Positions 1 to 47,491 of a stretch of DNA of 64,000 bases are shown one piece after another. The stretch lies in the NCBI GenBank assembly GCA_021292105.1, contig CM037861.1, positions 30,675,674 through 30,739,673 on the forward strand, in the 5' to 3' direction. The notes beneath the pieces were generated by a model. It made no database searches, had not been told where the DNA came from, and saw only the letters and a program-made list of their open reading frames with translations. The DNA is from Anadara kagoshimensis. Its lineage: Eukaryota > Mollusca > Bivalvia > Arcoida > Arcidae. The first letter of the stretch is position 1; each line of letters opens with the position of its first letter. Position numbers and translations under genes: made by a program.

Positions 1-565
1 TTTTCAGCTTTCATGTTTAGGAATCTTTTGATTCTTTTCCAGAAATGACTCCATCTTTCAGCTCTGATGATTGTCCGAGTTTAACATCTACATGTGGTGG
101 ACAGTTTTCAGCTTTCAAGCTTAGGAATCTTTTGATTCTTTTCCAGAAATGACTTTACTTTTCAGCTCTGATGATTGTCCAAGTTTAATGTCAACATGTG
201 TGGACCGTATTCAGCTTTCATGTATAGGAACATTTTTATTCTTTTCCAGAAATGACTCTTCTTACCAGCTTTGATGATTTCCAAGTTTAACGTCTTCATG
301 TGGCTGACACTGTTTTCAGCTTTCATGTTAAGGAATATTTTGATTCTTTTCCAGAAACTTTTCAGCTCTGATGATTGTCCGAGTTAAACTTTTGTATGTG
401 GTCCACACTGTTTTCAGCTTTCATGTTTAGAAATGTATTGATTGTTTTCCAGAAATGACTCTACTTTTCAGCTTTGATGATTGTCTGTGTTTAACATCTT
501 CATGTGGTTGACGCTGTTTTCAACTTTCAGATTTAGGAATATTTTGATTGTTTTTCAGTAATGAC
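1..565. repeat. Decayed tandem repeat, about 104-bp unit
   Basis: About five and a half copies of a unit running from TTTTCAGCTTTCATGTTTAG through CAGAAATGACT and GATGATTGTC to CATGTGGTGGACAG. Copies differ by substitutions and a deletion in the fourth. The array may extend left of the window. Confidence 0.85.
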
Positions 566-784
566 TATAGATGTTTTGAAGTGCACATGTACTAACATAC
601 ATATGGTGGGCTGAACTAATGTTGTAGATTTCATTTGATATAAACATCTCATATATAGTTTGCACAAATTTAAAGTGAATATGTATTTAGTGGATTCAGT
701 AAAAATTCATGCTTTAAAAAGTACTATCATATACTAATGCATAATGCCATGCTAGATTGCTGTTACTTCAGTCTTGTCAGTAGC

Positions 785-1335
785 TTATTTATAATAGCAG
801 GAAAGTAGCCTATATAGTACTAACAAATACTATTGTGAATATTTATGTACAGTACTTTGGTAAATAATTTCTGTGATAAAAAAGCCAATGTTCAATTCCC
901 AGTGATGTCAGCCTCATGCCATGGTTTAGCTAGTTAGACAGGAGGTGCTTACCATTCCAGAGCACCCAGTCTCACTTCCATGGTGGAAGTTTATGATTGT
1001 AGCTTGTTTATAAAAGGAAAAGTAGCCTATATCTTACTAACGAATACTTTTTTGGATAATCAGTCATATACAGTACAGTGCCAGATATCTTTTTGTTTGG
1101 GAATTTCCCAATTAATTTCTATGTTAATAAGTCAGTGTTCAATTCCTTGTGATGTCAGCCTCATGTCATGGTGTAGCTAGCTAGACAGGAGGTGCTTACT
1201 CTTCCAGCACACCCAGTCTCACTTCCATGAAGGAAGTTTATGATTACACGAAACTTCATTTGGCAGTTTCAAAGTTTTTACTTTGGTTTCAAGATTGTAA
1301 TTCAGAAATGGATCATAAATTCATGATACTGTTTA
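785..1335 (+). repeat. Two tandem copies of a block containing the RP retroposon end
   Basis: A block of about 230 bp (AAAGTAGCCTATAT ... GATGTCAGCCTCATG ... GACAGGAGGTGCTTAC) occurs at about 785-990 and again at 1010-1245. Each contains the RP core GGAGGTGCTTAC..TTCCAG; the second continues to the RP 3' part (CAGTTTCAAAGTTTTTACTT, up to about 1335). Confidence 0.65.
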
Positions 1336-1769
1336 AAATGATTCAACAATTGGAAAATTCTGTAACAAGAAATGTTTTTCGGATGGAACTGTATATTGCC
1401 TACAGTCTGTATACATGATGTGCTCTCTTTAGATATAGTTTTTAATACTTAAATTTTGTTCTGTCAAGAAAATGTGAATCTCTGAATCCATTTTCATTAC
1501 TTTTGGAAAACTTTATTTTAGAAATATGAAAAAGTCTAAAAGTGAGAATTAATTTTTTGTAACATTGCTTGGCAATATTGATTGGAATTGATTGGCATTT
1601 GTCATTTTTGGCATGTTTGGCATGCAGATGCAGTTGCACAGTTGATGGCATGCACACTTGGGTCAGGGTTTTTATTCCTTGTGGTATCAACTCCATGACT
1701 TGAAAATAAGTTGTGACTGGTCTTTTGGCACAACATTCAAGCAGTCACAAATTGAAGTCAGCACCAGTT

Positions 1770-2210
1770 TGTGTCATGATAGCCTTGACATGGAAAAAAA
1801 ACCCCAAAAAACCCCATAAATTCAATGAATCAGTACTTGGTGGTGCCATGATCAGCTTGGCATGGAAAAGGAACCACCAAGTCAGTACTGACTTCATGAT
1901 AGCAATGGCATGGAAAAAAAACACTGAGTTAGAGACTCGGTACTTATAGTGGTGCCATGATCAACTTGGCATGGAAAAAGGAACCCAAGAGTCAGTGAGT
2001 CAGTACTGGCTGACATCACGATAGGAGTGGCATAGAAAAAGAAACACCGAGTTGATGACTTAGTACTCTGCGGTATCATGATAGCTTTGGCATGAAAAAG
2101 AACCATCCAGTCAGAGAGGCAGTACTTATTATGATAGAATTGGTATAGAAAAGAAACCACCAAGTGATTGAGTCAGTACTCTGTGGTGTCATGGTAGGCT
2201 TGGCATTAAT
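1770..2210. repeat. Decayed tandem repeat, about 70-bp unit
   Basis: Six to seven imperfect units with the core TGCCATGATCAGCTTGGCAT, GGAAAAAGGAACCACCA and AGTCAGTACT. It ends about 190 bp before terminal exon 1. Short frames across it on both strands follow the repeat and do not look like genes. Confidence 0.75.
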
Positions 2211-2397
2211 CTTTGAATATGGTAAGCCATATGGTCCAAGGGCCTATTGTATTGCAAAAGGACCCAACACAGTCCAAAAAATAAAAGACTGTTAGTATAT
2301 ATAGCATTCAACAAGATGTGTTTGTTTTCGAATGTTACTTTGAATTTGGCACCTATCAAAATGAGATGTTTATAAAGTGATATGACTTTTATTTCAG

Positions 2398-2530
2398 ACT
2401 CCTGTCAGAGTTTGCATTCCACTTGTCACCTGATCGGGAGTTACCAACTAAGAAGAGCCCAAACAATGACATTATAGACTCTATACCAGATATACTGATT
2501 ACTTATCATCTTTTCAGCTGGGAATTATAA
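2398..2530 (+). CDS. Alternative 3'-terminal coding exon 1 of an unrecognised gene
   Basis: The exon follows a pyrimidine-rich tract ending TTTATTTCAG. It carries one base completing a split codon, then 43 codons and a TAA. The peptide starts LLSEFAFHLSPDREL and ends YHLFSWEL. It is homologous to the exons at 3386 and 6127: shared LL..F.F.LS..D near the start and HLFSW(D/E)L at the end, same splice phase, same position of the stop. The chance of an acceptor, a frame, a length and a C-terminus agreeing three times is small, so I read it as a real or recently real exon. It is the most diverged of the three and lacks the VKHH stretch, so it may be decaying or specialised. Upstream exons are outside the window or not recognisable. 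I do not recognise the protein family; no signal peptide, membrane segment or catalytic motif is visible. Confidence 0.6.
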
Positions 2531-2569
2531 ATCTATGTTATATTTCAGGGATTTTTCGTATTTATACCC

Positions 2570-2845
2570 CCACCCTGCAAACTAGTTTGAGGGGTGTATA
2601 TAGGGATCACCATGTCTGTCTGTTTGTCTGTCCGTCAGTCCTTCAGTGTAAAATTGTGTCTCAGTCATATCTCATAATGGCTTTGGATGACTGTAATTAA
2701 ACTTCACATGAATAATCTTCATGGTCCAAAGGTGTGTCATGACCTTGAACAAAGGTCATTTTGAAAAGGTCAAGGTGGCAGGAAAACATTTAATGTTGGG
2801 GCGGCTGGTATTTGGCTCTCAAGAGACAGTTCTAGTTTTGTTTAT
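2570..2845 (+). repeat. Dispersed GGGATCACCATGTCTGTCTG-type repeat
   Basis: The repeat opens near ACTAGTTTGAGGGGTGTATA, has a CTGTCTGT/CCGTCAGT run, TGTCATGACCTTGAAC and AAGGTCAAGG, and ends GGCTCTCAAGAGACAGTTCTAGTT. A second copy is at 21040-21275, and the array at 14105-15360 is a relative with the same type of ending. Confidence 0.75.
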
Positions 2846-3385
2846 TTCTTTTATTTTTTGTAATGTTTACATATGTTATTAAGAGTTTTTTATGCAATTG
2901 GGTTTAAAGTGCTGGCACTTTAACCAGTTTAAAATTGTTGTACTGTGATGGGTTTCATCGGTGTACCAAGTGATACCACATTGTTTTGACTTTCAGTGCT
3001 TTCCAAGTTCCAAAAGTACATATAACTTATCATGAAAATAAATAGAAATATTCACTTTTCTATAAAATTTTCGATTGCCTTCAACTTCAAAACATTAATA
3101 TATAGCAAGAAATTATTATACAAAATAAAACCTAATTTACTGAACTAAAGTGAATTTTGGAATTTACTACTGGCAAAATCTTTCCTGATCGAAACTTCAA
3201 AAAAGAAAAAGTTTCTTAAGGTGAAAAGGGTAATTTCTGATCAAAATATTTCTATATCATGTGTAAGTTACACACAATTAAATATGATATCACAGTGTAC
3301 TAAGATGAACCCTGCTCACACAAATAAAAGTAATGATTTTCACAATTTTTTACCCAAAACATTTTTCATCATTTTCATTCCACAG
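2846..3385 (+). other. AT-rich intron between terminal exons 1 and 2
   Basis: No gene or repeat family recognised. AATAAA-like hexamers near 3037 and 3123 could serve polyadenylation after exon 1, but nothing singles one out. Confidence 0.4.
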
Positions 3386-3521
3386 ATTATTGGCACAATT
3401 TGCTTTCAATCTATCAGTTGATTGGGAAATACCTAAAAGAAAGATTCCAAAGAAGGACAGTTTAAAGGAAAGTGTCAGAGACATGTTAGTCAAGCATCAT
3501 TTATTTAGCTGGGATCTTTAA
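3386..3521 (+). CDS. Alternative 3'-terminal coding exon 2 of the same gene
   Basis: The acceptor is TTTTCATTCCACAG. The exon opens with one base of a split codon (phase 2 intron), then has 44 codons and TAA. The peptide starts [17 protein letters not shown] and ends [13 protein letters not shown]; the middle is lysine-rich. It matches the exon at 6127 at about 31 of 44 positions, with the ends conserved and the lysine-rich middle variable. That pattern fits coding sequence under constraint rather than a non-coding repeat. It lies 855 bp after exon 1 with no other exon seen between them, so mutually exclusive last exons are likelier than separate tandem genes. An ATG-initiated frame runs through the acceptor from 3333, but the homology starts exactly at the splice site, so that ATG is probably not used. 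Family unknown. Confidence 0.72.
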
Positions 3522-4540
3522 TGGCTTAATACAGCAATAGTGCCTTCACAGAAAATTTGAAATTTATGAACCTCAGAAAATCCAATATTTATAAGAAATC
3601 CAATTATAATATATTGTGTTTTTTTTAATATATGTTTTTGATTAAGTGTTCATGAAAGGCTAGTAGATGTTGCAATTTATGTTTAATTTTGTTGCTTGGA
3701 GATTTGTAGCCTGGTTATTTTGTTACCCTATGCTTCCATTGTTGTATGAATGTGTGCATTTGATTGGATGTTATATTGTTTGTTATGATTGGCTGTATGT
3801 AATGTGTGATATGATTGGATACCAATATTGTAACCCCTGTACTGATTGGATATATATTGTCTACATTGTCCTATGTCCTGATTGGATGTACCCATGTGAA
3901 ATCCCTTATTTGTGAAATCCCTAATTTGAATGTGATAATCTCTTTTTATAGTGATTATTGTTACTTTATTTTGAGTGTTAGAAGTTATTTATTTGTTTAT
4001 TTTGAGTTTTTTGTTTGATAATTGTTTTATTTTAAATTTTTGTTACAAAATTGTGTTCTTTGTTACTTACATTTTTGTATGAAATAATTAAAATTGAATC
4101 CAAAACAGCATTGTTTTCCAAATGGTTTTAAAGTTTGGAAATATTTTAAAGTTGTGTCACTTATAATTTTCTACATAGCAATATGTAAATGCAATATATT
4201 TAGAAATATAGAATACACTTGCAATATCTAGGTTCATTATTGTAAATGTATTAATTTTAGCATGTACAAAATTTCATGTGTGCAAATTTTAGTGCATACA
4301 AATTTGTGTGCAAGTAATTATTTGGGTAAATTCAGATGGACTTGAATTAGCTTAAATTTCGTAGATCGCTTTTTGCTTTACAATCATATTTAATTTGACA
4401 GTGGATATAAATTAATGCCACTGGATCATCTTGAAAATGCCTAAAATTAATGAATGTGGTAAAGTAATAAGTTTACAGTATTTTCAGTCATTATTTACCG
4501 GTATCTTTGTTCCTAAAAAATTACAAATACAGCATAAAAC
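3522..4540 (+). other. AT-rich 3' UTR or intron after terminal exon 2
   Basis: Low-complexity AT-rich DNA. Between about 3750 and 3900 the words TGATTGGAT and TGATTGGCTG recur loosely. No second coding exon was found. Confidence 0.4.
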
Positions 4541-4544
4541 GGTT

Positions 4545-4800
4545 AAATTAAAACAATTAAGCTTCTTTTAACCTTTCTCATTGGTTGTGAGCTGAAATCT
4601 TTAAATTGCACCTGTAGTATTGAACCCATATAGCACCAGAATACCTGTCCGAAATACCAAAATTACTGATACAGGTAAAAAGGGTAAAAATTCAAAAATT
4701 AAGCTTCCTTTAACCTCCTTAATGGTTGTGAGCTCTCAGTTCTTTAATTGGCACCAGTAGTATTTGAACCTATAAAGCTCAGTAGTACCCCTGTCTGCTA
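4545..4800. repeat. Two-copy tandem duplication, about 130 bp
   Basis: AATTAAGCTTCTTTTAACCT ... GGTTGTGAGCT ... CACCTGTAGTATTGAACC occurs twice in a row with moderate divergence. It sits in the intron between terminal exons 2 and 3. Confidence 0.7.
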
Positions 4801-5223
4801 AACAACAAATTATGCAAAAATGGCTGTGTTTCTCTTCTTTACTATGTAGAATATATAATTAAATGTTTTCTAAAAAAGTTGTTAGTCATTAGATTGAAGT
4901 AGATTTTTTCATTGATTTTTTTCACTTTTTTAATATTTTTGTATTTTACATAAATTTTGTTTTAGATTTATATATATATTTGTTTTACATTTTTTCTATC
5001 ATATATATTATTATTATATACCATGTCATGTTGTACTGATGCAGTGCACTAGTAAAATTGCTTATGGTGCAATATATTAAATGATCTTGGTTGGTAAATT
5101 TTTGTTAATATATTTTCAAATTTGATTTATGAATAATTATTTACCTTTGAATGTCAGAATTGTAATTTATAAACTAGTCTGTGTAAATAAAATTATAGTG
5201 ATAATAACTTGTCCAATCAAGTG
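4801..5223. other. AT-rich intronic DNA, nothing recognised
   Basis: AT-rich with short TATATATA runs near 4970-5020. No coding, RNA or repeat signature seen. Confidence 0.4.
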
Positions 5224-5225
5224 TC

Positions 5226-5694
5226 TGGCCTCAGTTTCAAAATCATTCCTTAACTAAGATTTTCCTTAACTTAACCACTATAGTAACTCCGTTGGTGGAC
5301 TGTTTGCTCTGTATATGGAAGATTTGGGTTCCAACCCCATCCAGGTCTGAGCAAGACTTGAAAATAGGCAGTGACTTCTTTCTGTACCTATAGTTGGTGA
5401 TGTCTCGATAAACATAGATTATTTTTGATTGGGACATAAAACACTATTCAGTCAATCAATCTTTGCAAAATAGAAATGGTTAATAATTTTCTTATTTTTC
5501 AAGATATTCAGGAATTTAAGGTCATTGTGATGACGGCATCAAGCTTATAACATGTGTTTTCTAGTTCTGTTGAAAAAAAACGTATTTTGAGTTCCATTAA
5601 AGATAACCAAAATTATCATCAGGATTACCAAAATTAGCATCATTTAAGTTAGGAAAAGCCTTAGTTAAGAAATGATTGTGAAACGGAGACCTGT
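5226..5694. mobile_element. MITE F copy 1, interrupted by an S1 SINE
   Basis: Inverted ends: the left reads CAGTTTCAAAATCATTCCTT then AACTAAGATTTTCCTTAACT; the right is its complement (AGTTAGGAAAAGCC, AGAAATGATTGTGAAAC). The second copy at 36238-36503 has the same palindrome without the SINE. Superfamily not determined. Confidence 0.75.
5274..5462 (+). mobile_element. S1 SINE, internally deleted, inside MITE F
   Basis: A decayed tRNA-like head (TAGTAACTCCGTTGGTGG ... GGGTTCCAACCCC) joins directly to the S1 tail (TAGTTGGTGATGTCTCGATA ... GGGACATAAAACACTATT). The central S1 domain is missing. Confidence 0.7.
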
Positions 5695-5696
5695 TC

Positions 5697-6045
5697 ACTT
5701 TGGCTTCTTAGCTCATAGAACCTTGCTGCTGAAAAGGCATTGTGTCTATAATTGCATTTGCATCCCAAAAAAAACTTCCTGTATTTAGAATTTGGAATTG
5801 AAAGAAACAGCTTTTATTTTTACAAAACCTTGTTTCTGAAAAGATTTTGAGTCCAGAAATGCATTTACATCAAAGAAATCTTTGTTTGAAAATACCAGTA
5901 TTCGAGATTGGATGAATCAGCTTCTTAGCTCATAGAAACTTGCTGCTGAAAAGATTTCAAGTTTAGAATAACATTTGCATCCCTGATCATGAGATACATG
6001 TTAGAAAGTTTTGTTTATTTGGGATTGAAAGAAACAGCTTACAAT
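5697..6045. repeat. Decayed tandem repeat, about 125-bp unit, three copies
   Basis: Units share CTTCTTAGCTCATAGAA, CTTGCTGCTGAAAAG and GATTGAAAGAAACAGCTT. It ends about 80 bp before the acceptor of terminal exon 3. Confidence 0.65.
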
Positions 6046-6126
6046 ATTGCAAATATTCTGATAATTATACAAGCTTTTGTCTTTTAATATATTAATATTT
6101 GTATACTAATGACTTTATCTTTGTAG

Positions 6127-6262
6127 ACTTCTGGCTCAGTATTCTTTTAATCTAAGCAAAGACTGGGAGATCCCAAAACAAACAGTTACATCCTACAAGC
6201 CCCTAAAGGAAGGGGTTAAAGACATGCTGGTCAAACATCATCTCTTCAGCTGGGACTTATAA
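6127..6262 (+). CDS. Alternative 3'-terminal coding exon 3 of the same gene
   Basis: The exon follows a TACTAATGAC branch-point-like motif and the acceptor TTTATCTTTGTAG. It carries one base of a split codon, 44 codons and a TAA. The peptide starts [17 protein letters not shown] and ends [14 protein letters not shown]. The start and the last 13 residues are the same as in exon 2; the middle ([12 protein letters not shown]) differs. All three exons enter in the same phase, so any one could be spliced to the same upstream donor and give the same protein with an exchanged 44-residue C-terminus. Some 2.6 kb separate it from exon 2, including a MITE F copy. The gene continues to the left of the window. 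Function unknown; the strictly kept ending suggests a binding or localisation role, which is inference. Confidence 0.7.
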
Positions 6263-6269
6263 AATAATC

Positions 6270-6785
6270 CTGTGATTTTGGTTCCACCAAATAACTTCTG
6301 CAAAGAGCTGCAGCAATTACAAAATATCAGAATATTTTTTTTGGCTCTAATCCTGTGATTTCTTTATTTGTGATCTCCGCAAAGAGCAGCGACAATTTAC
6401 TAAAAATCAGACTATTTTTTTGCCTCAAACCCTGTGGTTTCTTTATTTGCGATCTTTCAAAGAGCCGGGACAATTACTTAAAATCTAGTTTGTGTATTGG
6501 CACCAAAACATTCCCACAGAGGCATGGCAATGACTAAAATCATAATTCAATGTACATTTGTTGTGAATCTAATCATGATCATGTTTCCACCAAATGATTT
6601 CTGTGTTTCATGTTTCCTTTAAAAAACTTCTGCAAAGAGCTACGACAATGACTAAAATTCTGACTATTTGTTGTGGCTCTAATACAGTAATACTGTTATG
6701 TGTCAATGTGTTTTCACCAAAAATTTCGGCAACAAACTTGGACAATGACTAAAGATTCTGAGTATTTGATGCTGCTCTGTTTTCG
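6270..6785. repeat. Decayed tandem repeat, about 90-bp unit, downstream of terminal exon 3
   Basis: About six units with CTTCTGCAAAGAGCTGCGACAA-like cores (shared words GCAAAGAGC, GACAATGACTAAAAT, GGCTCTAATCC). It starts a few bases after the stop of exon 3, so it probably lies in its 3' UTR. Confidence 0.65.
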
Positions 6786-7970
6786 CCCTCCCTCTATCTG
6801 TTATAATGGTGTGTTCTCATATATTGTTGATTTTTTGTTAAGTTTAAAATGATATAGTATACTATAATTAAACATGTCTTTCTAGAATTTTTGTGAAAAC
6901 TTACAGTTCTAACATCATTTTACTAGAAACAATGATCTTTTCAGCTTTGTAATTCAGTGTTCAGCTATAATTGAATTTCATCAGGTGGCAATATCGTGTT
7001 TAACCCCCCACCCAAACCCCACATCCATGCCAGAATGGACATCCCAAGTTTTTAACATACATACTTTTGTATTAATGCCGACTGTTTAGGAATCTATACT
7101 AAAATCGTACAAATTAGACAACTATAAACATTTTTAGGCAAACCATCATCTTCAGGTGATCTTTTTTTTGCGGCCATCTTGAAAAATGACCGCCATATTG
7201 GATTTTCAATTCGCCAATTCGGTAGATTGGATCAGTAGCCTTACAGATCAATTGTGCCAAATTTGATTCTTGTGTCATCATTTGCATGATTTTTCTGTTA
7301 TCTGCTCCACTACAGGTAATAGTCTGTGTAAATACAAGCAAATCATATTCAGAATTAAATATTCATGAAAATTAAACTTCTGTATCTTGTTACACTAAGA
7401 ATTAACACGAAAATAAATTGAATGCAAACACTTTGGAAAGAGTTCCATTTGTGCCCTCTACTAAAACTTTAATTTTGACTGAAAAAGCCTTAAAATGACA
7501 GAATCAAGCCATTTTGAACATTTCTGTGAAAAATAATTTTTCATATATTTTACATAGAATTAAATGGGTGGGGATGGGGGATACATAATGGAAGTCCCAC
7601 CAAAAATTACTGACTTACAGTGTTGACTTCAACATGGACCAGGGAAGCGGCCATGACAGGTAGGCAGTGACCGATAAAATAATGTTTATTATAGTGATAT
7701 GTATATATTATTTATTAATCCAAATATTTGTAAAAAAAAAATCCAGATGTAATGAAATCCATTATATATTTAATATGCATTATATATTTTTGTTTTGTGT
7801 AGAAATATACTGGCCGTTATCCACTATTAGGTGAAATCCGGTTTTCCCAAAGTACGATATTTTTAGATGTGAAAAGTTAATGTCAGTATTCCTTTAATTA
7901 TTTTTTTTTCTGACCCTATTTTGCCCTAGAAGTGTAATTAGAAGCCATTTCATAGTTGTTAGGTAGTGCC
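6786..7970. other. AT-rich stretch, nothing recognised
   Basis: Contains a GGCCATCTTGAAAAATGACC / GCCATATTGGATTTTC segment near 7160-7205 that resembles a motif scattered in invertebrate genomes. No coding region, RNA gene or clear element ends were found. Confidence 0.35.
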
Positions 7971-7974
7971 TATT

Positions 7975-8170
7975 TATTTATGGTCACCTGAGCTATAGGC
8001 TCATGGTGATCTATTGTGATCATTCTTTGTCTGTCATCATGCATCGTGCATCTAGCCAATAGCTGTCATGCATTATTAACTTTTACACATTTTCAAATTC
8101 TCTAAAACCAGTGAGCCAATTAAAACCAAACTTTACAGTTATATTCCTTGGCCATATAATCCTTTTCAAG
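7975..8170 (+). repeat. Dispersed TCACCTGAGC-type repeat, copy 1
   Basis: Opens GGTCACCTGAGCTATAGGCTC with a short hairpin, then GTGATCTATTGTGAT and CTGTCATCATGCATCG. A second copy is at 9535-9700. Confidence 0.6.
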
Positions 8171-8184
8171 TTTACAAAATGGGT

Positions 8185-8590
8185 TGACATTGATCTTTAT
8201 TCAAGGTCAATTCTGTATTAATGTCAAGGTGATGATCTTTATTCAAGGTCAATTCTATATTAATGTCAAGGTGACATTGATCTTTATTCAAGGTCAATTC
8301 CATATTAATGTCAAGGTAACATTGATCTTTATTCAAGGTCAATTCCATATTAATGTCAAGATGACATTGATCTTTATTCAAGGTCAATTATGTATTAATG
8401 TCAAGGTGATGATCTTCATTCAAGGTCAATTCTGTATTAATGTCAAGTTGACATTGATCTTTATTCAAGGTCAATTCCATATTAATGTCAAGGTGACATT
8501 GATCTTTATTCAAGGTCAATTCTGTATTAATGTCAAGGTGACATTGATCTTTATTCAAGGTCAATTCCATATTAATGTCAAGGTGACTTT
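8185..8590. repeat. 45-bp minisatellite, about nine units
   Basis: Unit: ATTGATCTTTATTCAAGGTC, AATTCTGTATTAATGTCAAG, GTGAC. Two units lack 3 bp. Because the period is a multiple of three, 15-residue repeat frames are open on both strands (FIQGQFHINVKV on + and ELTLNKDQCHLDIN on -). I treat these as by-products of the array. Confidence 0.92.
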
Positions 8591-8599
8591 CTATATTAA

Positions 8600-9534
8600 A
8601 CTGTTCAACATCTTTGGGGCATCAAGTAACAACATCTTATAACCCTCTTGTTAATTGCTTAAAAACAATACAATCAAGATAAGGTAAAAATAGTAAATGG
8701 ACAATCTTGTCAAACACTTTATAATTTGAGTGGGATTTCAGACGACATTTATCTGATGTGCCGTAAACCATCAGAATTATTGTGCTTATGTCATAAATGT
8801 CGCCCAAAAATACTTTTTAATAGATTGTACAAGCTGTAAATAAATTTTTGTCATGATTGTGACAAAAAAAAAGTCATAAAAATTGTTTGTATCAGGGTGT
8901 CAAATTAATGTTTTTTTCTGACCAAAACAAACCAGAGTTTAATGCGAAAATAAATGAACTACGCAGTTTTTTTTATCAAAAAATAAGTTGCTACAGCAAC
9001 CTTTGTCTTGTTTACATGTGGGTGGTTGTTGAGAAGGAAACAAAACATGTATTATTTTGTAAATTCACTTCCAACACATGTAGTAGTAGATTTATCGGTA
9101 ACAAGATATGATTTTTCTACACATGATTACTTCTTATGGGGGCGTTGATGATGGGTTGAAAAACTTGTGTTATGTTATTATGAACACAAAATTGTGATGA
9201 TGGGTTTAAAAACTCATGTTATGTTACAATGAACAGAAAATTGTTATTTATATTTTCTGCCTCATTTAAATGTTTGACTGTTAAGAGTAATTGTTAAACA
9301 CAGTAGGAAGGTGACTTGACATTATCATGGAGCACTTTGGTCGACTTTTTAACAGTGCTGCTCATCTCCATAATCTGTAATCTATTGTCCAATTTTAATT
9401 TTAACATTTTCTGCTATTTCTGAAACATTTAAGGCTATGCTTATGAACTATATTAGTTTATTGTCTGGTGATTTGGAATTTTTGTTATAAAAAGATGAGG
9501 CATATATATTACCTCTTGAAAAAAATTGTCTAAA
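8600..9534. other. AT-rich stretch with a small 50-bp duplication
   Basis: GATGATGGGTT ... TTATGTTA ... GAACA is repeated twice at about 9148-9242. Otherwise nothing recognised. Confidence 0.4.
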
Positions 9535-9700
9535 TTTCACCTGAGCATATAGTGCTCAAGTGAGCTATTGTGATGCATATGTTGTGTATCAACATTTGCT
9601 TGTTTACACCATAGTTCTGAATTTTGTCCTAAATTTAATCTTTTTACATTTTCAGAATAAATTCTTAACTTTCAGACAAAATTCAAAATACAGATTAATT
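9535..9700 (+). repeat. Dispersed TCACCTGAGC-type repeat, copy 2
   Basis: TCACCTGAGCATATAGTGCT then CAAGTGAGCTATTGTGATGC; the first 27 bases fold into a hairpin. Related to 7975-8170. Confidence 0.55.
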
Positions 9701-11579
9701 AATTTTTTTTGTGTACCAAAAATTAAGAATGAATTGGGATATTTTCCAAAATATTCAGACAAAATTTAGATTTTTTGTTTCATGAGGGTATTGATAAGGG
9801 GCCCTATTCAACCCCTAAAAATGAATGACATCAAACTTAAAATTTAAACATGTTTTAAAAGAAGTGTACATTATTATAAAAAAGATATAATATGTTTTTA
9901 AAATCGTTATTTTAAATACCGAATATTGCCAAAATTTACCAAATATAAAGTATAGGGTCTCTGTTCTTGTCAGTATTTAGTCCACCATTTTAACATTTTA
10001 AAACCACAGGAATTAGAAAATAAATTTTTAAAAGAGTTAAAGGTTAAATCATTAAAATTAAGAGAAAAATGTAGTTCAGTTATAAGAAAATGTTATCAAT
10101 TAATAAAAACAAAATCAATTGAAGGAAGATAACAACAACAAAAATTTTTATCAGAAATTTTTAGCAATAAATCATAGAATTAATAAAATTATTGAAATTC
10201 TGTGGAAAATGTAGTTCAATCCAAAAAAACAAAAAACAAAAACAAAAGAAAAAATGCAATTTAAGGAAGATAAAAAAAATTCAGAAAATTCTAACCATGA
10301 AACATAGAATTAATTTTGATCATATTTTTTTTCATTATTTGGACATCACACCATGACCAGGATGACACAGCAAATTTTTTGGTCTCCCTTTTTCAAAAAA
10401 AAAAAAAAATGAGACAAACAGTCCAAAAAACAAGGACATAAATTGTTCAGTACTTACTAATCACATAGTAATGTCATTATCTAACATTGACGGAATTAAC
10501 AACTAGTGTTAAACATGATTGAGAATCGTCCCTTTCTTAAAATTTGTCAACCACACCCCGTGAAATCCTATACAAGAGTTTAAAATTTATATTTATTTTC
10601 TCATATATTTTGTCCTTTATTTTTTGACAGTTTCATTTTTAGCCTAATTTTTTGTTGGTTACACCCTGTTTATATAATACATAATGTTTTTTTTTTTTTT
10701 TTTCTTTTGAAATGATGGGTATCGGATATCTTCCTTTTTAAGTGCAATAGTACGACTGTATTATACTAGAAATCCCAGAGTTTTTTTTTCTATTTCTATA
10801 GAAATACTTGGTTACCATAAATTGAATAATTTTTATTTTTTTGATTTTTTTTACTCAGTTTATTTTAAGTCAAATATTTGAAATAAGATCCGAATTAAAT
10901 GGGAAGAATTAATATTTTTGGATCGTGCATTAAAGTACAAAAAAACCCTGACAATTTCAATAAAATATTTTGAATCTCATATGACTAATAGATTTAGGTT
11001 TGATATTTTTTCAACCATTTTGACATTGGTAATTTGAAATGCTGTTAAACGCCTATTGCTTGAACTAAATTCTCTTACCAAATTTTGACAGCAATATCAG
11101 GGATATATGGTTACAGCCCATTGAAACAACTTTTTTCTGAAGTTAATGAAGTGGCATTGCTATTATAGAGACTTTTCATTAAAATTTGTAAAGCTTTTTT
11201 ACATTGGACTTGAGTACACATGTACTAAGGTATGAATAACACTGGTATGACAATGGTGCAATATTGAAATTTAGGTTTAATATTTTACAATCAGTTTTTA
11301 TGACGCCGCCCATTTTTCTTCTTTAGGACACAAACTTTTATTTTTGCATAAAAATAAGTGTATGGCAATAGTTCACTAATGGGCATCATGTATTTATTTG
11401 TGGCCATATTATTATGTTTAATCCAAATGAAAGAGAAAGAAAAGGTTCTTAAAAATGAGCTTAGAAGAAGACTGAAATTTAAACAAACATAATTAATTAT
11501 TCTGATGAAACATGTTTTATTGAGTAAATCATATGTGTCATTTTTGACACAAATTTCAACTTCAAATTGATACATATAA
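9701..11579. other. Very AT-rich spacer
   Basis: Long A and T runs (about 10394-10408, 10687-10704) and no recognisable gene, RNA or complete element. Short open frames look random. Confidence 0.45.
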
Positions 11580-11844
11580 TCACTGCGGTAGCTCATTTGG
11601 CAGAGTGCTGGCTCTGTAAATGGGAGATTGTGGGTTCAAACCCCGACCATGTCTTACCCAAGACCCATCAAGCATATTAAAATAAAGGAGGTCCTATGTC
11701 AAGGTAGGTGTTGCATGGTAAAAGAACCCTACTGTATAATGTCATCAGGCAAAATTTCTGCACCTTTGCCTATAGCTGGCAACATCTCAATATAAGTGAA
11801 ATATTCTTGACTGGGACATTAAACACCATTACCCAACCCAACTT
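11580..11844 (+). mobile_element. S1 SINE, nearly full ends, central deletion
   Basis: tRNA-derived head with A box (GGTAGCTCATTTGGCAGAG) and B box (GGGTTCAAACCCC), then the S1 tail (TATAGCTGGCAACATCTCAA ... TTGACTGGGACATTAAACAC). Part of the central domain is missing. The head is the promoter of the SINE, not a working tRNA. Confidence 0.85.
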
Positions 11845-12061
11845 AAATTGATACATGATTCAACTTTTTCATTTTGTTTGTATTTTGGGGACCAATCATG
11901 TAAACATTTTAGTCTTCTAAATGAGCTATATGTGACAATTAAGTAATACTATAATACCTCTTCAGCATTAAAAGCATTTGAACAAGTGCAATGTCCATAG
12001 TATGAAGGGAACAAGAACATATGTACTAATTTCTGAATTGATATTCTTTTTTTTTTGACAA

Positions 12062-12243
12062 TACAGTCAATCCTATCTATAAAGGCCTCCCAAGGGAGCC
12101 GGTTAAAGTGGCCTTTATGGGCAGGTGGTCCTTATATAGAGTTTCAAATAACATTAATAAAGAGCACTTGGATAAAATTTTACTAGCCGTTATAAGCAGA
12201 TGACCCTTTTATAGAGGTGGACATTAAGACAGGTTTGACTGTG
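12062..12243. mobile_element. MITE E copy 1 (Tc1/mariner- or pogo-like)
   Basis: Begins TA-CAGTCAATCCTATCTATAAA and ends with the complement (AAGACAGGTTTGACTG). GGCCTTTATGGGCAGG is internal. Same family as 27601-27785. Confidence 0.75.
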
Positions 12244-12757
12244 TTTTAAAAAAATGTCCTTTGGAAATGGGGTATGCCAGTGAATCACATGATGCCCTTT
12301 AATGTTTGTGTGGAGCTTTTATTTCCAATGGAATTGCATAAGTTGACCTTTCCTGTAAAAATAAAAGTTATTCTGTGAATTTGTGATGCAAACATTTTCC
12401 AAAACGTTCGGTCCACACATCTGTTCAGGTTTTTGATCACATGGTACTCTGGCGAACACTGTTTAAAAGGATAATTTGAAACAGCACCAAAAAAACAGAA
12501 ACAAGTCCTCACAATTAAAATACAATGTACAATGATTTTACGATAACTCTAATTATGGTATATAATAAGTAAGCAACATTCCAGTTATCTATATTAAAAC
12601 GGTTCTAATTAAATGCTTTATATTTTACAAATTGGTTTATTTTCGTTAATCTATTTTAAGATAATTTTTGGGCGTGTTTTCCTGTTTATTTTATTGTTAT
12701 TTTTTCCGTAATTGTTAAATCTATTTGCATTAATGAGAAATCCGAAACTTTTGTTTT
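12244..12757. other. Unassigned AT-rich stretch
   Basis: No element ends or coding signal seen. Confidence 0.35.
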
Positions 12758-12986
12758 TATAGGCAAACAACATTGACCTGTCTGCTTGACCTTTCATTAG
12801 GAATAGTCATATAGGAGAATCCATTTGATTTAGGGTAGGGTAAGGATTTAAGTTAATGAATAGACAGTGCACTGTTTACTCTATGAAATGAATATTTCTC
12901 ATTTCTTAACCTATACATTAATGTTTCAATCCATAATGAATATTTAAATAAAAGGTCAAGCGAACAGGTCAATATTGTTTGCCTAT
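12758..12986. mobile_element. MITE C copy 1
   Basis: Terminal inverted repeats of about 36 bp: left ATAGGCAAACAACATTGACC, TGTCTGCTTGACCTTT; right AAAGGTCAAGCGAACAGGTC ... GTTTGCCTAT. The second copy is at 20435-20659. Superfamily not assigned. Confidence 0.8.
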
Positions 12987-13110
12987 TCAAGTTTGCAATT
13001 ATTCCAAAGATACTTATTTACCTCCAATCTCCAGATTATTGACATGTTTATCTTGACATAAAAAGTTCATTTAGAAATATGATGATTATTATTTATGTAT
13101 TAGTAATGCA

Positions 13111-13329
13111 CAGTACAGGTCTGTCAAAAGTTTAACACTCAGCTAACGAGAAGGAGTCGAAACTTAGCTGTCGAGTGAACTAGATTATGATAGCTAGAGA
13201 CTGAAAAACTGCCACGAGACAGATGTAGCAGCTGTAGAGATATACGGTAGCTAACAAGGAACTAAGATTAGCTGCCGATTTGACACTGACTCGTTAAAGT
13301 AAGTGTTAAACTTTCAACAGGCCCATACC
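13111..13329. mobile_element. MITE A copy
   Basis: Left end CAGTACAGGTCTGTCAAAAG-TTTAACACT; right end GTTAAACTTTCAACAGGCCC. MITE A consensus ends are TA-CAGTACAGACCTGTCGAAAG and its complement; the start CAGT flanked by TA suggests the Tc1/mariner superfamily. Confidence 0.8.
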
Positions 13330-13727
13330 TTAATTGAGTAGGAGGGGTAATTTGATGTATAAAGACTTTATAGTATCACATGGTGTAATATAGTTCATCG
13401 AAAACATTGTTGTTATAAATATATATAATATGTTAATATGTGCATGCATATTTTCAATTTGTTGTGCAATAAAAATTCATGTAAACAGGTAAAATATCTG
13501 AAAATAAATCTAAATATGCATTTAAATCTTTGTTTTTCATGTTTTTATGATCAGAGAAGTATTGGCCAAGGTCTTGAAAAATCGGACAAGTGTTTCACAG
13601 AGAACTCCTTTTGTATACTTTTATCTGTTTCACAAATAAATACTAGTACATGTTGTAGCTAGTTAACTGTTTTATTATCTATTGTAATGGTTTACTATCG
13701 GTTATAATACACCCCCCAAAACAAATT
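13330..13727. other. Unassigned AT-rich stretch
   Basis: An open frame at 13438-13662 shows no recognisable protein feature and has AT-driven composition. Confidence 0.35.
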
Positions 13728-14102
13728 GGTTGGTTGAATGTTGCTTAACGTCGCATCAGCAATTTTTCAGCTATTCGCGACGAGAACTATTTAATTAATC
13801 TCTATATATGGATTAATCTATGAACAATTTTGTGGATGCATGTGAAGTGCGAGTGTGTTGTATGGTCTGCCTTGTACTAGCGCGCACTCAGGGCGACTTT
13901 ACCGTGCTAGCTCACAGAGTCAGTAGCTTGCAGACGAGCGTACCTCTCCCCCAGTCCATTATACTGATACCAGGTGAATCAGTAAAGGCTAACGGCAAGG
14001 AAAATTCGCTTTCCCACATGTGGTCCGAGCGGGACTCGAACTCACAGCGGTGAGAGACCCTGGATTTGAAGACTAACGTCTTATCCATTAGGCCACCGCG
14101 CT
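13728..14102 (-). mobile_element. S2 SINE (tRNA-Arg-like head)
   Basis: Read on the minus strand: head GCGGTGGCCTAATGGATAAG with a GAGTTCGAGTCCCGCTC B box, central GTGGGAAAGCGAATTTTCCT and CTGACTCTGTGAGCTAGCAC, tail GCTGAAAAATTGCTGATGCG then TTGAATGTTGC-type end with CAACCAAC repeats. Other copies: 50265-50620 (+) and 60891-61272 (-). Confidence 0.88.
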
Positions 14103-14104
14103 AA

Positions 14105-15360
14105 ACAAAGTTTAGGTGGCTATATGGAATCAATATGTCCATCTGACCAATTGCCAATTCACCCCAATATCATGTATGTTCCATATATTGCATATCTATA
14201 TATTAATTTCGATCAAACTTGGCACAAATGTTAACCAACATGAGATGATGTGTTGATTACCAAATTTAGGTGCAAAGGTTAATGGCACAAGGTCAAACCT
14301 TAAAAATAACAACTTGACAATGTTGGGGAAGGTGGTTATTTCTTACAAGAGACTGCTCTAGTTTAGGGGGCTATCTGGGGATCACCATGTCCATTTGACT
14401 ATCTGCCAATTCACCCCAATATTGTGTATGTTCCGTATATTCCATATCTATAGATTGATTTCGATCCAACTTTGCACAAATGTTAACCAACATGAGATGA
14501 TGTGTCGTTTGCCAAAATTAGGTGCAAAGGTCAAGGTTTAAGGTCAATCCTTAGAAATAACATCTTGACAATGTTGGGGAAGGTGGTTTTTTTTCTTACA
14601 AGAGACTGCTCTAGTTCAGGGGGCTATCTGGGGATCACCATGTCCATTTGACTATCTGCCAATTCACCCCAATATTGCGTATGTTCCGTATATTCCATAT
14701 CTATAGATTGATTTCGATCCAACTTTGCACAAATGTTAACCAACATGAAATGATGTGTCGTTTGCCAAAATTAGGTGCAAAGGTCGAGGTTTAAGGTCAA
14801 TCCTTAGAAATAACAACTTGACAATGTTGGGGAAGGTGGTTATTTCTTACAAGAGGCTGCTCTGGTTTAAATGGGCTATCTGCCAATTCACCCCAATATT
14901 GTGTATGTTCCATATATTCCATACCTATAGATTGATTTTGATCAAACATTGCACAAATGTTAACCAATATGGGATGATGTGTCAATTACCAAATTTAGGT
15001 GCATATGTCAAAGGTCAAGGTCACAAGGACAAACCTTAGAAATAACAACTTGCCAATGTTGGGGAAGCCGTTTATTTCTTACAAGAGGCTGCTCTAGTTC
15101 AGGGGGCTATCTGGGAATCACCATGTCCATTTGACTATCTGCCAATTCACCCCAATATTGTGTATGTTCCGTATATTGCATATTTATCGATTGCTTTTGA
15201 TCAAACTTGGCACAAATGTTAACCAACATGAGATAATGTGTCAATTACCAAATTTAGGTGCAAAGGTCAAGGGTCAAGGTCACAAGGTCAAACCTTAGAA
15301 ATAACAACTTGACCTAGTTGGGGAAGGTGGTTATTTCTTACAGGAGACTGCTCTGGTTTG
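14105..15360 (+). repeat. Head-to-tail array of about 250-bp dispersed-repeat units
   Basis: Five units starting near 14105, 14361, 14613, 14865 and 15097. Each has GGGGGCTATCTGGGGATCAC, CAATTCACCCCAATATTG, TGTTAACCAACATGAGATGA and ends TTACAAGAGACTGCTCTAGT. The fourth is shortened at its start. The ending matches that of the repeats at 2570 and 21040. Head-to-tail chaining and a CTAG(T) end are compatible with a Helitron-like element, but I could not verify the 5' TC end. Confidence 0.8.
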
Positions 15361-15659
15361 TTGTTATCATGTATAAACCATGTACATGTATTTTAAGTTT
15401 ATGCTCTAAAACTAGAATTTTATGCTCTTAAGCTAGTACTTGGCCAAATTGATGACATTTAATTAGTAATTATCATGCCAATGCAGGGACTTTTAGATTT
15501 TCACACTTAAGGGGCTATGTCTCCTTAGCCCTTTTTCTCCTCCGTTATTGGTAAAAAACTGAGAATCCTAAAAATCTTCTTGTACCAAAGTGCTAGATCT
15601 TGGATATTTCATATTGACAATACATGTAGTTTCTACCTTTTACAAATGTTGAGTAAAAT
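15361..15659. other. Unassigned spacer
   Basis: Nothing recognised. Confidence 0.35.
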
Positions 15660-15932
15660 TGTATTGGCACCTTTGTGAACTATCCCAAAACAAACGTCAA
15701 GGAAAAGGTAAAATGTGTGGTGTGATGGAGACGAGTAGAGAAAATGGTGGCTTATAACACAGTCAAGATTACTTGTAGTACTTGGATAGTTGAGGAAACT
15801 GGAGAAAACCAACGTCTTTTTAATTGAACTGGCAATCTTTCTCACATGGGGTCGCCAGAGTGGTATTGGAACCAAGGTGGTGAGAGGCTATGTGAGTCGT
15901 AAGCATACGCTTCAGACCGCTTGGCAATAGAA
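15660..15932 (-). mobile_element. S3 SINE (tRNA-Ser/Leu-like head)
   Basis: On the minus strand the head reads TTGCCAAGCGGTCTGAAGCG ... CTTGGTTCCAATACCACT, followed by CCCCATGTGAGAAAGATTGC and a TTTTCTCCAGTTTCCTCAAC domain. The B box has drifted from GGTTCGAATCC. The long minus frame across it is not a gene. Confidence 0.75.
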
Positions 15933-16282
15933 GTCCTGTGTGACGTAATGATTGGGGAGAATACAAAACAGATTATAGCTTAAAGACAAGTGACTAGAAT
16001 TATTGCGATTTTTTCAGATTTTATCGTAGCGGAAGCGAATGGTAAAATGAAATATTTTAAGTTCCGTCTGATTGATAGAAAAAGTCAAAGCAAACTTTAC
16101 AACATGTCATGGATATAAAACATACTTATCCATCTTCAAACCACAATACAAAAAAGTAGAAAAATTGGAAACTGGCAAATCTAGCCAAACCACCACGCGT
16201 GTAATCAAAATTAAGAATGAATAGAACTATGGGAGGTCAAATATATCTGTAAGATAATTTGAGATACAGAGCACAGACACTT

Positions 16283-17071: not shown

Positions 17072-19079
17072 TACAGACCCTGTCGAAAGTTTAACAGTAA
17101 CTTGAGAATTAGTGCCGAATTGGCAGTTCATTTTGGCTCGTTAGTACAGCTCTATATTCCGACAGGCAGATTTTCAGTACAGTACAGACCTGTTGAAAGT
17201 TTAACAATAACTTGACGAATTGGCAGCTCATTTTGGCTCGTTAGTACAGCTCTATATTCCGACAGGCAGATTTTCAGTACAGTACAGACCTGTCGAAAGT
17301 TTAACAATAACTTGACGAATTGGCAGCTCATTTTGGCTCGTTAGTACAGCTCTATATTCCGACAGGCAGATTTTCAGTACAGTACAGACCTGTGGAAAGT
17401 TTAACAATAACTTGACGAATTGGCAGCTCATTTTGGCTCGTTAGTACAGCTCTATATTCCGACAGGCAGATTTTCAGTACAGTACAGACCTGTGGAAAGT
17501 TTAACAATAACTTGACAAATTGGCAGTTCATTTTGGCTCGTTAGTACAGCTCTATATTCCGACAGGCAGATTTTCAGTACAGTACAGACCTGTGGAAAGT
17601 TTAACAATAACTTGACGAATTGGCAGCTCATTTTGGCTCGTCGTTACAGCTCTATATTCCGACAGGCAGATTTTCAGTACAGTACAGACCTGTCGAAAGT
17701 TTAACAATAACTTGACGAATTGGCAGCTCATTTTGGCTCGTTAGTACAGCTCTATATTCCGACAGGCAGATTTTCAGTACAGTACAGACCTGTGGAAAGT
17801 TTAACAATAACTTGACAAATTGGCAGTTCATTTTGGCTTGTTAGTACAGCTCTATATTTCAACAGGCAGATTTTCCGTACAGTACAGATCTGTCGAAAGT
17901 TTAACAATAACTTGACGAATTGGCAGCTCATTTTGGCTCGTCGCTAGTACAGCTCTATATTCCGACAGGCAGATTTTCCGTACAGTACAGACCTGTCGAA
18001 AGTTTAACAATAACTTGACGAATTGGCAGCTCATTTTGGCTCGTCATTAGTACAGCTCTATATTCCAACAGGCAGATTTTCCGTACAGTACAGATCTGTC
18101 GAAAGTTTAACAATAACTTGACGAATTGGCAGCTCATTTTGGCTCGTCATTAGTACAGCTCTATATTCCAACAGGCAGATTTTCCGTACAGTACAGATCT
18201 GTCGAAAGTTTAACAATAACTTGACGAATTGGCAGCTCATTTTGGCTCGTTAGTACAGCTCTATATTCAGACAGGCAGATTTTCAGTACAGTACAGACCT
18301 GTCGAAAGTTTAACAATAACTTGACGAATTGGCAGCTCATTTTGGCTCGTCATTAGTTCAGCTCTATATTCCGACAGGCAGATTTTCAGTATAGTACAGA
18401 CCTGTGGAAAGTTTAACAATAACTTGACGAATTGGCAGCTCATTTTGGCTCGTCATTAGTTCAGCTCTATATTCCGACAGGCAGATTTTCAGTACAGTAC
18501 AGACCTGTCGAAAATTTAACAATAACTTGACGAATTGGCAGCTCATTTTGGCTCGTCGTTACAACTCTATATTCCGACAGGCAGATTTTCAGTACAGTAC
18601 AGACCTGTGGAAAGTTTAACAATAACTTGACGAATTAGTGCCGAATTGACAGCTCATTTTGGCTCGTCGTTACAGCTCTATATTCCGACAGGCAGATTTT
18701 CAGTACAGTACAGACCTGTGGAAAGTTTAACAATAACTTGACGAATTGGCAGCTCATTTTGGCTCGTCGTTACAGCTCTATATTCCGACAGGCAGATTTT
18801 CAGTACAGTACAGACCTGTGGAAAGTTTAACAATAACTTGACGAATTGACAGCTCATTTTGGCTCGTCGTTACAGCTCTATATTCCGACAGGCAAATTTT
18901 CAGTACAGTACAGACCTGTCGAAAGTTTAACAATAACTTGACGAATTGGCAGCTCATTTTGGCTTGTCGTTACAGCTCTATATTCCGACAGGCAAATTTT
19001 CAGTACAGTACAGACCTGTCGAAAGTTTAACAATGTGTACCAGTAAGTTAACGAATAAGTGCCGAATTACCAGCTCATC
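17072..19079. repeat. Satellite of 100-103-bp units derived from MITE A ends
   Basis: About 19-20 head-to-tail units. Each holds CAGTACAGTACAGACCTGTC, GAAAGTTTAACAATAACTTG, ACGAATTGGCAGCTCATTTT, GGCTCGT and CTCTATATTCCGACAGGCAG. The junction CGACAGG...CCTGTCG is a right MITE A end followed by a left one, so a unit is a shortened MITE A in tandem. Period is 100 in the first half and 102-103 in units with TCGTCATTAGT. Minus-strand 60-codon frames across it are artefacts. The last unit is cut by a MITE B insertion at 19080. Confidence 0.9.
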
Positions 19080-21039: not shown

Positions 21040-21275
21040 TTTAGTATATAGGGATCATCATGTCTGTATGTACACCCGCCCGTCCGTCCGTCCGTGTAAA
21101 ATCGTGTCGGGACCTTATATTATAATTGCTTTAGACGATTGTCACAAAACTTCACAGGTCCAAAGATGTGTCATGACCTTGAACCAAGGTCATATCGGAA
21201 AGGTCAAGGGAAAACATTAAATGTTGGGCGCGGGGGGGGGGTGGTATTTGGCTCTCAAAAGACAGTTCTAGTTAT
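21040..21275 (+). repeat. Dispersed GGGATCATCATGTCTGT-type repeat
   Basis: CCGTCCGTCCGTCCGTGTAA run, GTGTCATGACCTTGAACC, AAAGGTCAAGG and the ending GGCTCTCAAAAGACAGTTCT-AGTT. Homologous to 2570-2845. Confidence 0.75.
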
Positions 21276-36110: not shown

Positions 36111-36237
36111 ATGTATCTTCTGTATTTTCTAGACGCGAATTCCTGCAATAATGCTGATGCGGCTTTAACCAATAAATCACTAACTCGATCACTCTTAACT
36201 GAGATTACCTTGATTTAAATCTTGCAAAATTAAAACT

Positions 36238-36503
36238 GGCCCCGGTTTCACAATCATTCCTTACCTAAGATTTTCCTTAACTTAAATTTAGCAAATTTTT
36301 GTAATCTGTTTTTGGTACTATTGGTGAATATTTTTGTCTGAACTAAATGCAAATGTTTTAATCTAGAAATTATCTTAAAATTGACACATTAAATTCCTGA
36401 ATATCTTGAAAATTAACAAAATTATAAAGACTTGAAATTTTGCAAGATTTAAGTTAAGGAAAATCTTAGCTAATTATAAGGAATGATTGTGAAACCGGGG
36501 CCT
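36238..36503. mobile_element. MITE F copy 2
   Basis: Left GGCCCCGGTTTCACAATCAT, TCCTTACCTAAGATTTTCCT; right is the complement ending GAATGATTGTGAAACCGGGG-CC. 266 bp, no insertion. Confidence 0.85.
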
Positions 36504-36644
36504 GTAATAATTTTGTTAATTTTTATGATATTCAGGTGTTTAAGGTGTCATTTTTAAGATCAAAGTTTATCACAACTATATGTTAATTTTGTCAAAACCT
36601 TTGCTTTGGAGTTCCATGAAATGTTACCAAAGTTTTCCAGCTTC

Positions 36645-45182: not shown

Positions 45183-47491
45183 ACCTTAACCTTAATTCTC
45201 TCCGTGCCAGGAGGCACATAAGGCCTGAACATTCGCTCTCCACTTGTTGCGGTCTGCAGCTTCTCGACGCACTAGGCTCCAAGATTTCCATCCCGCCTCA
45301 TTTCTCTCAACTTCCACCATCCTTCGCCACGTTGTCTTTGGCCGTCCCCGCTTTCTTCTTCCTTCTGGCGTCCACCCTAGTGCCACAGCACAGTCATTTG
45401 ATATATCTTTTCTTAGGATATGGCCTATCCAGTTCCATCTCCTTCTTCTTATCTCTTTGCTGATGTTACACGTCTCTGCCATCTCCAATACAGTCTGGTT
45501 TGTTGTTCTTTGCTGCCAACTGATCTTAAGGATCCTCCTTAGGCATTTTGTTTGGAAGGAGTCGATCTTCTTTTCCTCTGTCTTGGTAAGCTTCCATGTC
45601 TCGCATCCATATAGTAATACGGAGAGAACAAGGCTTTTGAAAAGAGAGACTTTTACTTTTCTGCTAATGTTTGTAGCCTTCCAAATACTGTCTAGCCTTC
45701 GAAAGGATGTACCAGCCATCGCTATCCTCTTCTTGATGTCGGCTGTGCCTCCGCCATCCTTGGTGACATTGGCTCCCAAATAGGTGAAGTTATCAACTTC
45801 TTCTACTTCACTATTTCCAACATGCAGGCTGGTGTCACTCTTGCTGTTAACCTTCAACACTTTACATTTCTTGGCATTCAGCTTCAGACCAACTTTAGCT
45901 GAGTTATCTTCAAGCTTTGTTGTTTTGCACTGTAGATGGCACATTGTGGATGAGAGCAGAGCAATGTCGTCCGCAAAGTCGAGGTCTTCTAGTATGGTGC
46001 TGAAGTGCCATCGAATTCCGGTGCGTTCTTCCTTTGTTGTCTGCTGCATCACCCAGTCTATAACTAGAAGGAATAGGAATCCTGACATGCAGCAGCCTTG
46101 TTTAACGCCAGTAAGAACGGGAAAAGGGGCTGTTGTGTCGTTTTCTTCTATTACTGAACACTGAAAGTCTTCGTAAAGTGCTTTTACCATTTGGATCAAT
46201 TTCTCTGGTATGCCGTATTTTTTCATAATGATCCAAAGACTGTCTCTGTGCACTGAGTCGAATGCCTTCTCGAAATCGACGAAATGGATATACATAGTAG
46301 CATTCCATTCGTTGGCTTGCTCCAAGATGTTCCTAAGAATGAATATTTGGTCAACAGTCCCTCTGCCTCTTCGGAAGCCTGCCTGTTCTTTCCTTAATAT
46401 GCAGTCCACGCCCGTTTGTATTCGGTTTATGATGATGCGGCTGAGGACTTTACTGGCTAAAGGTAACAGTGTAACTCCTCTCCAATTGTTGCACTCTTGT
46501 AGGTTGCCTTTTTTGGGAATTTTACAGATCAGTCCCTTGGTCCACTCCTTTGGTACTTTCTCCTCTCTCCATATTTGATCGAAGATAAGTTTGAGTTCTT
46601 GGCTGGACTGGACTATGTCAGATTTCAACATTTCGGCAGTGATCTGATCTGCTCCAGGGGCTTTTCCATTCTTGAGTGTCTTCAATGCATTTCTTACTTC
46701 TTGTAAGGAGGGTGTATCAACTGAGATATTTAGTTCAACTCTCTTCCTGCTCATCTTGTGGTGTTGATTCCGGAGTCTCCCTGTTTAGGACCTCTTCAAA
46801 GTGTTCCTTCCACCTGGCAAGTCTTCCTTCTTTGCTTTTTAACAGTTCTCCGTCTTTACTTTTTACTGCTGCTGTTTGTTTGCTTCCTTTTCCTGTTAGC
46901 TGCTTTACTATGTTATATAGTTCCTTTTGTCTCCCATTTTCAGCTGCTTTCTGTGCTATTTCAGCTTTCTCCGCCACCCATCTTCTCCTATCCTCCCTCA
47001 CATTCTTCTTGACTTCTTTATCTTTCTCTCTATAAGCCTCCTTTAGTCTCGTCTTTAGCCTTTCAGATCTTGCGCCCTCCATCTTTGTTTTAATTTCCTT
47101 TCTTCCATCTATAAGTCTCCATGTGTCTTCACTGATCCAGGGTTTGCTCTTTCCCTTCCTGTAGCCTATGATTTCCTCTGCGGAGTTTACATATGCCATC
47201 TTTTGCTGTTCCCAGGTGTTTTCAATATCCTCATACTCTTTTCTTTGGATTTCTCTCAGCTTCTTTCTGACACAGTCATTAAACTTTGTTCTTATTTCTG
47301 TATTTTGGAGGCGGTCGGTGTCCAATCTTGGTCTTATCTTGCTGCTGTTCTTGTATGTGCTAAGATGTAGACGGATCTTAGTCTTCACCAAGTAGTGGTC
47401 GCTGTTGGCATCTGCTCCCCTCATTGATCTGGTGTCTAAGACGGAGGATCTCCATTGTCCATTAATAAGGAGATGGTCAATCTGGTTTTTA
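45183..47491 (-). mobile_element. 5'-truncated non-LTR retrotransposon (LINE)
   Basis: Minus strand, from the end of the endonuclease domain through the reverse transcriptase to a very short 3' end (TTAAGGTTAAGGTAA right after the stop). It is inserted in the 41-bp minisatellite, which resumes at 47492. Truncation at the 5' end is typical of target-primed reverse transcription. Clade not settled: the C-terminal GRRKRGRPKTTWRR and the FADD box occur in several APE-type clades. Confidence 0.9.
45192..47491 (-). pseudogene. LINE endonuclease/reverse transcriptase ORF, one frameshift
   Basis: The N-terminal part starts in the endonuclease (IDHLLINGQWRSSVLD, then GADANSDHYLV with the SDH motif of APE nucleases) and a lysine/arginine-rich linker. 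The second frame (46754-45192, 520 codons) has the RT domain: FRRGRGTVDQIF, VDFEKAFDSVHRDSLW (motif A), GVKQGCCMSGFLFLLVIDW (motif B), LDFADDIALLSS (motif C, FADD), then YLGANVTKDGG, ILRKD and RKRGRPKTTWRRMVE near the C-terminus. The frames overlap at 46735-46754 and are offset by one base; the ATG at 46754 is inside the original frame, not a start. Apart from truncation and this shift the reading frame is intact, so the insertion is fairly young. Confidence 0.88.

Follow-up and report, generated by a model that had tools for sequence, protein, structure and literature searches.

A window of Anadara kagoshimensis DNA, that is, the whole stretch of 64 kb that was analysed, contains near its start three short homologous segments with the anatomy of last exons, denoted e1, e2, and e3. 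They follow one another on the forward strand and are separated by two intervals. The features are listed below in their order along the window, and the coordinates of the three exons include the stop codon.

2398–2530, forward strand: candidate terminal exon e1; 133 nt, consisting of 1 nt, 43 codons, and TAA
2531–3385, forward strand: interval between e1 and e2; 855 nt; 3' UTR of e1 and/or intron, with a dispersed repeat at 2596–2837
3386–3521, forward strand: candidate terminal exon e2; 136 nt, consisting of 1 nt, 44 codons, and TAA
3522–6126, forward strand: interval between e2 and e3; 2605 nt; 3' UTR of e2 and/or intron, with repeats at 5225–5695
6127–6262, forward strand: candidate terminal exon e3; 136 nt, consisting of 1 nt, 44 codons, and TAA

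An AG directly precedes each exon (2396–2397 for e1, 3384–3385 for e2, and 6125–6126 for e3). The leftover base at the start is A in all three exons and completes a codon, the intron phase being 2. The stops align with each other and are TAA each time, and the encoded peptides are 43, 44, and 44 residues long. An earlier note on this DNA had placed the exons at these coordinates, had described their homology, the phase that they share, and the acceptor and stop of each, and had given their C-termini as 43–44 residues; all of this was recovered on recheck. It had also called the exons interchangeable, which follows from the common phase and the acceptor position. In the reading frame of each exon, a stop lies upstream of the first full codon at a distance of 6 codons for e1, 26 codons for e2, and 5 codons for e3. 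Between this stop and the exon there is no ATG for e1 and e3, and there is a single one for e2, which falls within the presumed intron. Because the upstream stops are close and an ATG is found for e2 only, it is likely that none of the three is a free-standing open reading frame.

The three acceptors are of different quality, as judged by the pyrimidine count and the distance to the previous AG, with C or T at −3. There are 444 AG sites in 1–9000, and the quality of the e1 acceptor (TTTATTTCAG) is reached by 35 of them, that of e3 by 9, and that of e2 by 2, the site itself being counted in each case. Hence, the e1 acceptor is unremarkable, the e3 acceptor (CTTTGTAG, where a branch-point-like CTAAT starts at −21) is good, and the e2 acceptor is strong and the best of the three. 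No upstream exon was recognised within the window. Three of the four donor patterns searched on 1–9000 gave no match, and the loosest matched once, at 2729, within the repeat that follows the e1 stop. The partner exon would therefore lie outside the window or carry a weaker donor.

The homology of the three exons is clear at the protein level. Residue identity is 70% between e2 and e3, 50% between e1 and e2, and 36% between e1 and e3, and 16 of the 44 alignment columns are invariant. In the same order of pairs, BLASTP gives E values of 5e-23, 7e-15, and 9e-11 (in a database of 3 sequences), and tblastn against the 64-kb window gives 3e-19, about 5e-12, and about 6e-8. The peptides share the frame LL....F.LS.D.E.P ... 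D.L...HLFSW[DE]L, and their middle is variable. Peptide e1 differs from the other two by having one codon fewer and R at a position where e2 and e3 have W. The final 13 residues are identical in e2 and e3, despite different codons at 6 of these positions. At the nucleotide level, the similarity is restricted to the exons and is absent from the 120-nt flanks: global alignments, compared with 200 shuffles, give z-scores of 8.2, 10.0, and 12.6 within the exons and of −0.8 to 1.5 in the flanks on either side.

It is conceivable that e1–e3 are fragments of a dispersed repeat or of a mobile element, an alternative that the earlier note had named as one that would refute its reading. The window is indeed rich in repeats, and those at 2596–2837 and 5225–5695 fall between the exons. 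However, the repeats lie between the exons and not over them, and tblastn and profile searches of the 64-kb window found no convincing fourth copy. The best other place by tblastn is a match of 12 residues on the minus strand at 1090–1125, with an E of 0.008 for e2 and 0.074 for e3 (0.082 with the profile). With the similarity confined to the exons as well, the repeat origin is not favoured within the window, and we consider it very improbable.

The repeats themselves are of several kinds. The one at 2596–2837 is 74% identical to 21044–21273. The region 5225–5695 has matches within 36234–36637, and parts of 5273–5460 occur in many more places; it is an element whose inverted ends measure 48 nt and are 83% complementary, and the commoner repeat 5273–5460 seems to have been inserted into it. 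Tandem repeats occur before e1 at 1–570 and 1758–2209, the former being an array, upstream of the exons, of units of ~103 bp, most of which have an acceptor-like TTTTCCAG. A minisatellite of 45 nt occupies 8185–8583, where the frame 8160–8639, open for 160 codons, is repeat-derived, and a satellite-like array with units of ~100 bp occupies 17100–19030. On the minus strand, 45195–47496 encodes a reverse transcriptase (RVT_1, E 9.5e-36, in the frame 45195–46784) that probably belongs to a LINE-like element; a second long frame, at 46738–47496, also minus, matches no family above its cut-off. Also on the minus strand, a broken mariner-like transposase is found at 61569–62508 in two overlapping frames with an internal repeated stretch (Transposase_1, E 5.7e-19; HTH_48, E 0.00018, which is below its curated cut-off). 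Rfam gave no match in the window at gathering thresholds.

Between the exons, differing sites at codon positions 1, 2, and 3 number 18, 8, and 23 for e1/e2; 22, 11, and 26 for e1/e3; and 17, 8, and 23 for e2/e3. By NG86, dN is 0.34 for e1/e2, 0.53 for e1/e3, and 0.29 for e2/e3, and dS is 4.6 for e1/e3 and not computable for the other two pairs. Thus, synonymous divergence is near saturation and amino-acid change is held back. Exons e2 and e3 differ at 48 of 132 nt and keep 31 of 44 residues. When the same number of changes is placed at random, in tests where one copy stands in for the ancestor and which comprise only 43–44 codons, the observed residue identity is reached in 0 of 20000 placements for e2/e3, in 14 of 20000 for e1/e2, and in 317 of 20000 for e1/e3. 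When only the changes private to a single copy are considered, the joint probability that they alter so few residues and create no stop, subject to the same stand-in and the same few codons, is 0.0034 for e1, <0.0001 for e2, and 0.0003 for e3. A plain count of the private changes that are synonymous is significant for e2 only (10 of 13, P 6e-6; e1, 9 of 24, P 0.054; e3, 7 of 23, P 0.18), and the enrichment of private changes at third positions is not significant in any copy (P 0.25, 0.10, and 0.21). We take all three exons to be under coding selection, either now or for a long time in the past, e2 most surely. As far as sequence can tell, the homology, the exon-limited similarity, and the near-saturated synonymous change together identify e1–e3 as old tandem duplicates that were kept as coding exons.

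These counts bear on whether all three copies work. The gene could have a single working last exon, most likely e2 or e3, the remaining copies being old and either in decay or little used. The clear constraint that the plain synonymous count shows for e2 alone fits this possibility, as do the ordinary acceptor of e1, its missing codon, and its R for W. On the other hand, all three exons are open in frame and have kept an intact acceptor and stop despite synonymous change that is near saturating, and the joint random-placement probabilities are low for e1 and e3 too. A single working exon is, on this evidence, unlikely.

A further possibility is that each of e1–e3 closes its own copy of a gene repeated in tandem, or that they are remnants of such gene copies; a tandem array of duplicated genes can look like an exon cluster of this kind (PMC3228551). 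Nevertheless, the exons are spaced by 855 and 2605 nt only, part of which is repeats, and no convincing coding-like segment is shared before the three of them (pieces of at least 12 residues, E up to 0.05). Among the three intervals that precede the exons, the best protein-level match of stop-free pieces has an E of 0.012 over 9 residues; whole-gene duplication was rejected, as only short matches were seen among these intervals. Comparison of the same intervals with 6263–16000 gave two matches near 6e-5, which are apparently repeat-derived or low-complexity. We regard separate gene copies as improbable to a considerable degree.

The reading that we consider probable is that a single gene has e1–e3 as its alternative 3'-terminal coding exons, and that its remaining exons lie upstream of window position 1. 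It is proposed that one last exon was duplicated in tandem to give three copies, and that this took place long enough ago for introns and synonymous sites to have lost most of their resemblance. A common upstream phase-2 donor would be joined to one of the three acceptors, and the stop in the chosen exon would terminate the protein. The result would be three C-termini with a shared frame and a variable middle. Because each exon ends in a stop, mutually exclusive use is expected. The reading of the earlier note, namely homologous, in-phase, and stop-bearing alternative C-terminal exons, is supported, while its term "mutually exclusive" describes what the stops lead one to expect, the use of each exon being presumed.

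As e1–e3 are terminal, 3'-end processing would probably decide which of them is chosen: cleavage and polyadenylation behind e1 or behind e2 would most likely compete with splicing to the acceptor that follows. Counts of the poly(A)-signal hexamers AATAAA and ATTAAA are compatible with either the presence or the absence of separate poly(A) sites. The 855 nt after e1 contain 5 hexamers versus 2.1 expected, which is weakly above chance (P 0.06), and the numbers are at chance level in the 2605 nt after e2 (6 versus 6.5 expected) and in the 2700 nt after e3 (9 versus 6.7 expected). RNA structure is another conceivable factor. Eight inverted pairs of at least 30 nt are present in 1–12000. One of them, 3318–3359 with 4037–4078, is 42 nt long and 71% complementary; its arms enclose e2, which might in principle be looped out by their pairing. 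Another, 174–203 with 6717–6746 (77%), spans the whole exon cluster. Since two more 42-nt pairs with 71–74% complementarity are found elsewhere in 1–12000, the pair flanking e2 is indistinguishable from background, and pairs of this sort would seem to be background in A+T-rich sequence such as this.

The arrangement is not a new type and, by the sequence criteria tested, belongs to a known class. In a survey of tandem homologous exons (WebScipio), 3'-terminal clusters form a separate class (class B) with multiple poly(A) sites, of which human capping protein beta is an example; of the 101 alternative terminal exons that are annotated on the fly X chromosome, counting 5' and 3' ones, 14 have features of this kind (PMC3228551). 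These clusters are kept apart from true mutually exclusive splicing since the choice often occurs by alternative 3'-end processing (PMC3228551, PMC3923563). For the 3'-terminal kind, the Kassiopeia paper counts 34 predictions in C. elegans and 41 in A. thaliana (PMC3923563). Like the class of human capping protein beta (PMC3228551), e1–e3 are neighbouring exons of similar length in a common reading frame, are homologous, and have an acceptor and their own stop in each; unlike it, they comprise three copies, are known from DNA sequence alone, and belong to an unnamed family. Strict internal mutually exclusive exons form a cluster that is bounded by further exons. Each of e1–e3 ends in a stop, and the only donor-pattern match on 1–9000 is the one at 2729; an untranslated exon may be located downstream of the cluster.

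Three Drosophila systems offer further comparison. The pip gene likewise has tandem homologous terminal exons, which are called mutually exclusive there; it differs in having eight such clusters, which are listed among duplications in UTRs (PMC9013439), and the family searches found no link between pip and the present gene. In PGRP-LC, as proposed here, the choice is made among 3' regions of one pre-mRNA, but it is directed by competing RNA structures (PMC9013439), of which the background-like pair around e2 gives no comparable indication. Variable single terminal exons are also known in lola and mod(mdg4), where they are trans-spliced (PMC3228551). By analogy, separate upstream transcripts could be trans-spliced to e1–e3. 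However, the three exons are successive on one strand, and nothing in their arrangement calls for trans-splicing or gives a sign of it; the likelihood of this is slight.

The protein family is unnamed after scans of Pfam, NCBIfam, PDB, prokaryote genomes, and viral sequences, which says little about its novelty, no eukaryote protein collection being among them. Neither the three peptides nor the open reading frames that enclose e2 and e3 match Pfam, the peptides do not match NCBIfam, and e2 alone has no match in PDB. The three-row profile gave a PDB match to the 30S ribosomal protein S4e that was rejected as chance level (E 0.26). Pattern matches, 61 viral and 29 prokaryotic, include no confirmed relative, and five C-terminal strings were found in no paper. 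Titles and abstract beginnings of the literature on bivalve and mollusc genes with such exons contain nothing on this gene. An AlphaFold2 model of 44 residues, made from the three sequences of the window, predicts two helices, its confidence being low (mean pLDDT 61.5, pTM 0.24). The S-W-[DE]-L end presumably resembles a class II PDZ ligand. It is a speculative and rather doubtful extension that e1–e3 represent an undescribed protein family with a conserved cap at the C-terminus, possibly a pair of helices with S-W-[DE]-L as a PDZ-ligand-like tail. This cap would be switched by use of one or another of the three ancient exon duplicates, and the switch would be conserved across a clade and depend on tissue or stimulus.

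Provided that e1, e2, and e3 are all used, the locus would be a compact case in which tandem duplication of a last exon leads to alternative C-termini, and the age of the duplicates would allow residues that have to be retained to be told from those free to vary.
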